Shown: piece by piece, positions 5 through 8,223 of the stretch
How positions within the stretch are numbered: the stretch's first letter is position 1
Layout of the letters: each line of letters opens with the position of its first letter
Position numbers and translations under genes: made by a program
IMG/VR virus record: IMGVR_UViG_3300046810_000191
Location: 1 to 20,283 of that record
Source of the DNA: a virus
Strand: one strand, 5' to 3'
DNA length: 20,283 bases
The notes under the pieces: generated by a model
Seen by the model: only the letters and a program-made list of their open reading frames with translations
Told to the model about the DNA's origin: nothing
Database searches by the model: none

Positions 5-1651
5 TCATCCAGTTCCCTCACCAGCAGCCGCAAGGCCAGCCGCAGCGTGAGCGGTCGCGGGAGCACGGAGTCGTCCGGCCCTGAACCCCGGCTCACCGAA
101 GAACGCCAGCCGGATACGGCCGTCATCCAATGCGCGCCGGCCAGTCGACTTCACCTTGTGCAGACGCACCGTCACGATCTTCCGGATCACCTCGCGTTTC
201 TGATCCATCGTGAGCCCCGGCTCCGCAGGTTGGTCCGCAGTCTGGGGGCGTCCGTTCCATACGAGGTCGGGATCGTTCGACTCCAGCATCCGGAGCAGCA
301 GTGGCGACACCCCCGTGAACGTCGTCAGCTTCTTCCGCTCCGTCTCCAGCTTCGGCTCCAGCCGCGACTCCATCGCCGCGAGCGAGCCCGCGGACAGTTT
401 GAACCGGCCGGTTTCCTTGTCGAATTCATGGGCCAGAGCGCGAGCTTCGGCGAGCTGCTCCTCGTAGGCGTTGATCAGCTTCTGTGTGGCGGCCGCCTTC
501 TCCTTGACCTTGTCGTCCGCCGGTACCAGCGCAGCCCGCGCCGTCTTCTTATCGCTGAACCAGTCGAGGACCGCTTCCTCGACGTAGGCGTCGAGCACGG
601 CCATGACGATGGAGGTATCGAACTTCTCCTTGCAGACCAGCGTCGTCTTCCGCACGCCACTCGGAGCGAGGTAGCGCAAGACCGCGTGGTCGCCGCACTC
701 GCCACACAGAGCGACGTACGACAGCAGGTGCTTCGGTTCGGTGCCGCGTTGCGTCCGGCGGGCTGGGTCGGTGAGCTTGGCCGTGACCCGGTTGAACATG
801 GCCCGGCCCTGCGGGGTGTCGAGTCCCTTGATCGGAGCCCACACGGCTGGGATGTACGTGGTCAGGTGAAGACGTTCACCCAGGTAGGCCCGGTTCAGCA
901 GCATCTGCCGGACCGCCTGCTCTTTCCACTCGCGACCGTCCGGGCGTGCCGCGTCCGTCTCGGAGCGCAGCCATCGCGTGAGGGCCCTGAGGGAGTGACC
1001 AGCGTCCATGCGCTCCAGGGCCTGGAGTACGTAGGTCCCGCGCACGGGATCTTCGGTCTGTCCCGTGCAGCGCTTGCGCCCGCTGACTGTCTGGTAGGTG
1101 CGGATGTAGCCGTAGATGGCTTTGCCGTGCGGCATGCCTGCCTGGGCTTGGGAGTTGGTGGTGCGGATGTTCCGGTCGCGGATGCCTTCGGCCTCGTCTT
1201 CGGCATCGATGGCGTGCATGGCCGTGGCCTTGCTGTCATCGCGTCGGCTGAGGTCGTAGATCTGGCCGTTGTAGCAGAGGAGGGTGCCGGTGTCCCGGCA
1301 TGCTTTCCGGAAGCGGACGTAGGCTTCCAGGTCCCTGTAATAGCGGGATGCTTCGAAGGCGATCACGATGCGTCGCACGCCCCGGGGAGGGGGCTCCTCG
1401 GTCATGGAGGCGATCAGAGCCTCGAAGTCGTCGCGGACCTTGCGGCCGTGGCGGCTGGCTGAGACGTCTGTGTCGTTGAACTCGCGGCGGATGCGCCAGT
1501 TGTGTCTGTTGCAGAGACCGCGCCCGTTGGCGAGTTGGTCTTCGACGGAGGCGCCGCTGCTTGTGGAGTCGTCGCTGTTGCGGCCGTAGAGCAGGGCTTC
1601 GAAGGTGACGCCGGGGATGACCAGGTGCAGGTATTCGGGCGCGTAGGGCAT
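5..1651 (-). CDS. int: Large serine recombinase (phage integrase)
   Basis: A 548-residue serine integrase that would carry out site-specific attP x attB recombination. The N-terminal resolvase domain has the Y-x-R-x-S motif (Y22, R24, catalytic S26 candidate) and the later E-x-S-R-x-x-R motif (E100, S102, R103, R106). The recombinase domain covers about 170-300. A zinc-ribbon region starts with CGEC (C316, C319) and continues to C340, followed by the usual LDAYVEEAVL helix. A charged coiled-coil insert spans about 383-445 and the C-terminus is Ala/Gly-rich. Length fits large serine integrases. ATG 1651 is the only reasonable start: an in-frame TAA lies just upstream. No Shine-Dalgarno is visible, so translation may be leaderless or weak. 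Oddity: the expected fourth zinc cysteine is not seen after C340 (sequence KEKFDTSI). The gene ends four bases from the window edge but is complete. Confidence 0.96.
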   Translation of the reverse strand: MPYAPEYLHLVIPGVTFEALLYGRNSDDSTSSGASVEDQLANGRGLCNRHNWRIRREFNDTDVSASRHGRKVRDDFEALIASMTEEPPPRGVRRIVIAFEASRYYRDLEAYVRFRKACRDTGTLLCYNGQIYDLSRRDDSKATAMHAIDAEDEAEGIRDRNIRTTNSQAQAGMPHGKAIYGYIRTYQTVSGRKRCTGQTEDPVRGTYVLQALERMDAGHSLRALTRWLRSETDAARPDGREWKEQAVRQMLLNRAYLGERLHLTTYIPAVWAPIKGLDTPQGRAMFNRVTAKLTDPARRTQRGTEPKHLLSYVALCGECGDHAVLRYLAPSGVRKTTLVCKEKFDTSIVMAVLDAYVEEAVLDWFSDKKTARAALVPADDKVKEKAAATQKLINAYEEQLAEARALAHEFDKETGRFKLSAGSLAAMESRLEPKLETERKKLTTFTGVSPLLLRMLESNDPDLVWNGRPQTADQPAEPGLTMDQKREVIRKIVTVRLHKVKSTGRRALDDGRIRLAFFGEPGFRAGRLRAPATAHAAAGLAAAGEGTG

Positions 1652-1674
1652 GCGTCGATGTTAGCGAAGTCTTG

Positions 1675-1720
1675 CCATCCCTAAATAGGCTTGTGGAGCC
1701 ACAAAGTGGTTTAGGGGTGG
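1675..1720. other. Candidate phage attachment site attP
   Basis: A concentric dyad centred on 1697.5. Inner arms TTGTGG (1691-1696) and CCACAA (1699-1704) flank a central AG. Outer arms CCCTAAA (1679-1685) and TTTAGGG (1710-1716) share that centre and extend to CCA/TGG with one mismatch, giving 46 bp. Serine integrases use sites of about 50 bp with inner and outer inverted repeats around a non-palindromic dinucleotide, often next to int. This matches in size, symmetry, centre and position, 24 bp upstream of the integrase start. It could instead be a regulatory dyad; no U-run follows on either strand, so an intrinsic terminator is less likely. The function is inferred; the symmetry is directly seen. 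Confidence 0.55.
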
Positions 1721-1953
1721 TTATTTGTTGGGTCCGGCTGGTCCGGCGGGGTGGCGTCGCAGACCTCGTCGACGAGCTCCAGCGTCTCGTAGAGGCGGAT
1801 GCGTAGCTGTTCGACGATCAGGATCAGGGACGCCGGCTCCAGCTGCGCAAGGTCCTCGGCCCGGAAGGTTTCCAGGTCGCGACGTGCGTAGTCGATCTGG
1901 GCCTTCTGGATGTCGGTCAGGCGCGCTGGTGGGCGTGGGGGGTCTTCGTGCAT
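1711..1953 (-). CDS. Small acidic helical protein upstream of integrase, function unknown
   Basis: An 80-residue protein with a predicted helical, charged middle (about residues 12-68: LTDIQKAQIDYARRDLETF, then LILIVEQLRIRLYETLELVDEV) and Pro-rich ends. I do not recognise the family. ATG 1953 is preferred because AGGTGA lies about 8 bases upstream; a GTG at 1965 would add four residues but has no good ribosome site. The gene is in the same direction as the integrase and probably shares its transcript. Its stop codon lies inside the right outer arm of the candidate attP, so integration at that site would remove or replace the last codons. A role in integration control is possible from position only. 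Confidence 0.6.
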   Translation of the reverse strand: MHEDPPRPPARLTDIQKAQIDYARRDLETFRAEDLAQLEPASLILIVEQLRIRLYETLELVDEVCDATPPDQPDPTNNHP

Positions 1954-2079
1954 GGGGGCTTTCACCTGATGCTGGGCGCGGGATGGTGGGGGCGCGCCAG
2001 GGTGGGCGGCCGATGCATGGGTGGCACAGCTAATTGTGTGTTCAATATTTGCACACGCGCAATGACAGTTAACTCACAT

Positions 2080-7668: not shown

Positions 7669-8223
7669 TTAGGCGATGCGCTGGAGGCGCAGCCAACTGT
7701 CGGTATAAAGAGTGGTGGCGGTCGCGGATGAGGTGCCTTGTGCCCAGTCCAGAGACACCGTCCCTGACGTCGGTCCGACGCGGATCGTTCCGTTGATGGT
7801 CACCACCAGCGTTGCTCCAGCCCCGAGGGCGCCATGGACTCGGCCCGCCCCCAGATCGGCGGATTCCGTACGGATCAAATAGCCCGTCCCGCCCGACGTG
7901 TTAAGAGTGAGGGTCGGCGTTGCGTTGGAGCCCACGACGTTGTTACCGGCTCCCAGTGCCATCCATTCGCCGAGCGCTTGAGAAGGTGCGGTCACCTGCA
8001 ACTTGAAATCGCCAGCGGTATCACCGTCGTATTTGAGCCAGCCGTCCATGATGTACACGGCATTTGCGTCGACAGAGAATTGCAGATGAGGATCAGCGGA
8101 TGTTGTCGTCGTTGCCGAACGTTGGGTGTCCGCAGTTTTGCGGGCCACCTGCGGCAGCATCGACCGCAGCAGTGCGGCGGCGAGTCGCTGCCCTGCGAGG
8201 GGCGTGGGATAGGCCTCCGGCAT
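7669..8223 (-). CDS. Tail-tip or minor tail protein
   Basis: A 184-residue protein. The N-terminal helix (about 8-35, LAGQRLAAALLRSMLPQVAR) is followed by a beta-rich domain with DPHLQFSVDANAVYIMDGWLKYDGD, ALGEWMALG and a C-terminal Trp/Leu strand. Proteins with this layout are common after the large minor tail gene of Streptomyces siphophages; a beta-sandwich that trimerises is likely. A receptor-binding role is inferred from position only. ATG 8223 has a strong AAGGAGG about 6 bases upstream. Confidence 0.75.
   Translation of the reverse strand: MPEAYPTPLAGQRLAAALLRSMLPQVARKTADTQRSATTTTSADPHLQFSVDANAVYIMDGWLKYDGDTAGDFKLQVTAPSQALGEWMALGAGNNVVGSNATPTLTLNTSGGTGYLIRTESADLGAGRVHGALGAGATLVVTINGTIRVGPTSGTVSLDWAQGTSSATATTLYTDSWLRLQRIA

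Follow-up and report, generated by a model that had tools for sequence, protein, structure and literature searches.

The 46-bp dyad that lies between an 84-codon gene and a large serine integrase gene is almost certainly the site at which a Streptomyces phage opens its own DNA for insertion into the chromosome. We have very little doubt that the dyad is the attP of the adjacent integrase. Its assignment as a serine integrase site of a well-known kind, used by an integrase group only distantly related to those of the GenBank phage collection, is well supported by the position and symmetry of the dyad, by its conservation and core variation among related phages, and by the junctions of related prophages, from which attP and attB sites were rebuilt.

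The window, i.e. the whole stretch of 20,283 bases analysed here, is IMG/VR virus record IMGVR_UViG_3300046810_000191 and carries tail and lysis genes together with the large serine integrase gene (int). Reading from the right end, the minus strand encodes a head-tail adaptor-like protein, the major tail protein, the tape measure, a large tail/phosphodiesterase-like protein, an endolysin, a phage regulator and a DUF397 gene. These are followed by a plus-strand HTH gene, the 84-codon minus-strand gene and, at the left end, int (Table 1). The integrase has an N-terminal resolvase domain (PF00239) followed by a recombinase domain (PF07508), both above cut-off. A zinc ribbon was not matched in Pfam; the protein does have a CGECGDH motif with a further Cys after it, and it matches the PHROG integrase profile over residues 19-507. 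The top matches to the integrase in the GenBank phage collection, from Gordonia, Mycobacterium and Rhodococcus phages, were only about 30% identical. Among the phage genes there is also a 213-aa ORF with a collagen-like triple-helix repeat (Pfam PF01391; 5274-5915, minus strand). At 2192-2806 the HTH gene adjoins the DUF397 gene, here in a phage setting; such pairs are common on Streptomyces chromosomes.

Table 1. Coordinates of the predicted attP and neighbouring features in the window.
Feature	Position	Strand	Description
Large serine integrase gene (int), 548 aa	5..1651	(-)	Pfam Resolvase 3.6e-10, Recombinase 5.5e-6; PHROG 95 integrase 3.6e-46
TAACAT, a TAnnnT -10-like box	1658..1663	(-)	Six bases before the int ATG
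Predicted attP, 46-bp imperfect concentric dyad	1675..1720		Between the 84-codon gene and int; from sequence, shuffle test, dyads of relatives and prophage junctions
Outer arms	1679-1685 and 1710-1716		7/7 match; extended to 11 with one mismatch
Outer arm CCCTAAA, int-side half-site	1679..1685		TATTTAGGGATGG (int strand) retained beside int in prophage G637
Inner arms TTGTGG / CCACAA	1691-1696 and 1699-1704		6/6 match; kept in L005, L012, L013 and L057
Central AG, predicted crossover dinucleotide	1697..1698	(+)	CT on the int strand; non-palindromic; centre of symmetry
Outer arm TTTAGGG, half-site on the 84-codon-gene side	1710..1716		CTCTAAATACTTTTGTGG retained at the other end of prophage G637
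84-codon gene flanking the predicted attP	1711..1965	(-)	Marks the far end of integrated prophages

Direct reading of positions 1675-1720 gave CCAT-CCCTAAA-TAGGC-TTGTGG-AG-CCACAA-AGTGG-TTTAGGG-GTGG, in agreement with the concentric arms and AG centre described in an earlier note on this DNA. The dyad is separated by 23 bases from the int start codon (1649-1651, minus strand), and the outer arm on its far side contains the stop codon of the 84-codon ORF (1711-1713). Symmetry was scored with 22-bp arms about a 2-bp centre, and no position in the 20,283 bp scored above the 16 of 22 of the dyad. A score of at least 16 by itself was expected 0.37 times per shuffled window, and the significance of the dyad therefore comes from its concentric pattern and its position, not from the total score alone. 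Perfect 6-bp inner and 7-bp outer arms sharing one centre were found at a single place in the window and never in 300 dinucleotide-preserving shuffles.

Scans of viral contigs yielded three further contigs with an identical integrase and others with integrases 40-76% identical. The four identical-integrase contigs, the window included, have different ends and all run through the dyad, which supports the earlier view that the site is unsplit and phage-like. We compared the window with 15 other phages whose integrases are 40-76% identical to its own. In nearly all of these 16 distinct phages, symmetry near int was highest about a centre at roughly -45 to -47, and the dyad scored at least 14 of 22 (range 14-18) in 10 of the 16, compared with 80 of 4000 random places (2%). 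Dyads were weak (11-13 of 22) in L061, L062, L064, L065, L066 and L068, so that symmetry alone would miss the attP in these six phages; in L064 the best-scoring centre does not coincide with the aligned core. The bases at the dyad differ between phage groups, for example CGTACGGCTGTGTGTGCACGTCTC-ATCC-CAGATGTGCACACAGGGCCGTACG in L006, with the architecture unchanged. The arms hardly differ among the closest relatives, and the int-strand core is CT in the window and L005 versus AC in L012, L013 and L057. Even in L013, whose 84-codon gene is down to 40% identity, the adjoining arm matches that of the window at 21 of 22 bases. Kept arms with a variable core are expected of a serine integrase attP, because the protein reads the arms and the core need only match that of attB. 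Comparison with L012 and L013 also marks the attP region (window ~1650-2250) as a mosaic boundary: L012 is 94-100% identical to the window on the 84-codon-gene side and about 75% identical in int, and L013 is similar in int and attP and about 55-65% identical on the other side. A half-site pattern run against the viral contigs recovered only intact phage sites and L010, an AT-rich chance match that was discarded.

Streptomyces genomes were searched with the integrase, and integrated relatives were found, six of which (G187, G241, G200, G637, G460 and G599) could be read at both ends. The integrases of these six are 45-73% identical to that of the window (72-73% in G637, 71% in G460 and 62% in G187). 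All six prophages have int at one end and a homologue of the 84-codon gene at the opposite end, 53-68 kb apart with other phage genes between them, and the phage map was therefore opened at the dyad position. The earlier note had proposed an attP here and had named related junctions mapping elsewhere as the result that would speak against it; in the six prophages the break instead separates int from the 84-codon gene, just where the dyad lies. The cores shared by attL and attR are TGTGGGGCGACA (G187), TGGGTCCAGA (G637), GTGGAGCCACA (G460), TCCCCCGAAG (G599) and TCCCCCGA (G241). The stretch common to attP and attB is 10-12 bp in G187, G637, G460 and G599, and in the first three of these the bases equivalent to the AG of the window fall inside the 10-12 bp common to attL and attR.

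Rejoining the phage ends gave clear attP dyads in four prophages: G460 (CCATCAGTAAGTCACATTGTGG-AG-CCACAAAACCGCTTACTGATGG, 17/22), G637 (CCACCTCTAAATACTTTTGTGG-GT-CCAGAAACCTATTTAGGGATGG, 17/22, close to that of the window), G200 (ACCCCTCTAGCGGGGTTTCTTC-CC-AAACTACCGACGCTAGAGGGGT, 16/22) and G187 (GCGGAGGTAAACAACTTTGTGG-GG-CGACAACGTCGCTTAGGTACAC, 14/22). The rebuilt attP of G241 was weaker (11/22), and G599 gave no resolvable dyad. Rejoining the host flanks restored open reading frames in G187, G200, G637 and G460. Judging by sequence alone, we take these to be GH43/AbfB-like (G187), DUF4192-like (G200), GH18 chitinase-like (G637) and DUF779-like (G460); the G241 insertion appears to be intergenic. 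Of 60 other Streptomyces sampled, 34 have the DUF779 gene intact. The DUF779 genes read at the junction are unbroken, and L097 has one difference from the rejoined G460 site over 45 bases. Prophage copies of related integrases had no dyad at the attP offset; their best scores, 8-12 of 22, were no higher than background, which is what split sites should give.

Several other flanks were noted during these searches. The G241:C2 and G599:C4 prophages (L043, L088) have a similar attL host flank (CCCCCGAAGG...CAGCACATGAC), apparently representing one conserved intergenic attB, and the rebuilt attB of G241 has perfect 13-bp arms (GCCGGAAGTACGT/ACGTACTTCCGGC). L020, L021 and L022, three Streptomyces prophages which have integrases about 40% identical, carry the same flank upstream of int (~7920-8000), GAAGGGGAGTAGCTCTTCGCCCG, and this is probably a recurrent attB of a different subgroup. 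The records of L063 and of G790 contig 876 (L090) both start 46 bp ahead of int, on the expected crossover or directly beside it; these starts may be assembly or trimming breaks at att sites and were not counted as evidence. The L063 record, checked for a second junction, did not include the other end.

The dyad might instead serve the int promoter as an operator or other regulatory palindrome, to which a repressor or the integrase would bind. If TAACAT is the -10 box the dyad overlaps the would-be -35 region, and a bound protein could affect int transcription. A mere operator, however, leaves unexplained that the prophages break inside the dyad, and the central dinucleotide varies among relatives while the arms stay. 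We consider it very unlikely that the dyad is an operator and not a recombination site; a regulatory role could exist alongside attP function.

A transcription terminator separating int from the 84-codon gene is a still less probable reading of the dyad. In its favour, the inverted repeat coincides with the 3' end of the upstream ORF, but the arms are interrupted by unpaired 5-bp spacers and, by eye, no T run follows on the int strand; moreover, the dyad is taken apart in prophages and its core changes while the arms stay. We give as little credence to the reading of the dyad as a prophage junction, attL or attR, whose symmetry is fortuitous. In favour of this reading, attB sites can be symmetric too, as in the rebuilt site of G241. 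Phage sequence nevertheless lies on both flanks of the site, with the L004 viral contig extending at least 6 kb past it on each side. Four contigs with different ends pass through it, and the prophage copies of related integrases lack a dyad there (best 8-12 of 22).

With the dyad as attP, we infer that both half-sites would be bound by an integrase dimer, whose recombinase domain is expected to occupy the inner part and its zinc domain the outer arms. The integrase would synapse attP with a chromosomal attB that has the same central dinucleotide. Staggered 2-bp cuts would then be made at the predicted crossover bases, AG (1697-1698), and the exchanged halves would be rejoined. Once integrated, the phage would be bounded by int and by the 84-codon gene, with one P half-site retained at each end.

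In each of the 35 integrase genes examined, from phages and prophages, a TAnnnT motif begins 11-13 bases upstream of the ATG (at -12 in 31 of them), leaving a gap of five to seven bases to the int ATG; the background for TAnnnT is about 0.05-0.09% per position. With a -10 box in this position, transcription would start at or near the ATG. This suggests that the int mRNA is leaderless and is made from a putative promoter between attP and int. Leaderless mRNAs are common in Streptomyces. Integration should leave the box with int, because TAnnnT lies on the int side of the crossover. Use of the site had been expected to disconnect int from both its upstream gene and its promoter. This is correct for the 84-codon gene and is not supported for the promoter, given that the motif is on the int side in all 35 genes. 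Any -35 element at the usual distance from the box would share bases with the int-side P arm, and one may speculate that int might be repressed by integrase occupying attP or the int-side junction.

Homologues of the 84-codon gene, which in the six prophages lie at the opposite end from int, were also present in 9 of 12 viral contigs searched, and no match was found in GenBank phages. The L013 homologue is 40% identical to that of the window, whereas the integrases are 73% identical. We do not favour a role for the 84-codon gene as directionality factor, since its identity does not track that of the integrase.

Searches of Streptomyces genomes and viral contigs with half-site and DUF779 junction patterns did not find the attB of the window phage. 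Across all genomes searched, the prophages found had integrases at most 73% identical to that of the window, and the attB and junctions of this phage are therefore derived from its relatives. Scanning genome contigs with the single protein turned up nothing closely related to the integrase, and an alignment scan found only 38-48% identical relatives. The search for prophage ends carrying half of the dyad, as the earlier note had advised, was unproductive: 394 Streptomyces genomes gave two one-mismatch matches, no more than the reversed-pattern control, and neither resembled an att junction. DUF779 junction patterns gave nothing in the viral contigs, and no junction with the attP of the window was seen.

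The attP of the window and the DUF779 sites of several Streptomyces have 12 bp in common (TGTGGAGCCACA, plus strand, inner part). G460, with a 71% identical integrase, is inserted in DUF779, and the core of the window matches the DUF779 site with its polarity relative to int reversed. The 12-bp match adds little beyond the dinucleotide, because the inner arms equal the family consensus. A forward CT match was sought at the DUF779 codon at the core; the 27 genes read had AG (16), CG (9) or GC (2), and none had CT. The int-strand cores of a supported clade of seven integrases, AG, CT, CT, GT and AC (three), form two reverse-complement pairs, AG/CT and AC/GT, each in both polarities. From these sequences it is possible, though we doubt it, that relatives flip the polarity of the attP core, so that phages with almost the same arms would enter the same site in opposite orientations. 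The CT of the window (int strand) would then be the partner of the AG in DUF779, and insertion would run opposite to that of prophage G460. This pairing is unproven, and the target of the window phage is more probably a site other than DUF779. No account of DUF779 as an attB was found in the papers searched.

The characterised attP of Streptomyces phage phiJoe lies 18 bp upstream of int, is at most 50 bp long and is an imperfect inverted repeat about GG (Fogg et al. 2017, PMC5311408). By description it is like that of the window, being just upstream of a serine integrase gene and consisting of an imperfect inverted repeat with a non-palindromic dinucleotide. The dyad of the window, an imperfect inverted repeat of about 45-50 bp about such a dinucleotide, is in the same size range (PMC5311408). 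The phiJoe gene across attP is divergent from int and was tested as a directionality factor (PMC5311408), whereas its counterpart in the window runs in the same direction as int and is no obvious candidate for that role. The Streptomyces phages phiC31, TG1 and phiBT1 likewise have a large serine integrase that recombines phage attP with host attB (general knowledge and PMC11530663); unlike theirs, the integrase of the window belongs to a distinct group. Prophages G637, G460 and G187 have the same attP position as the window, while their cores are GT, AG and GG, respectively, versus CT in the window (int strand), and their attB loci differ (chitinase-like, DUF779-like and GH43-like).

These results provide a mapped integration site for a Streptomyces integrase group that is only about 30% identical to its nearest members in the GenBank phage collection. 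The rebuilt attP/attB pairs of several relatives are possible integration tools. The natural variation of the core with kept arms supplies test cases for changes of target site and of insertion direction in serine integrase phages.
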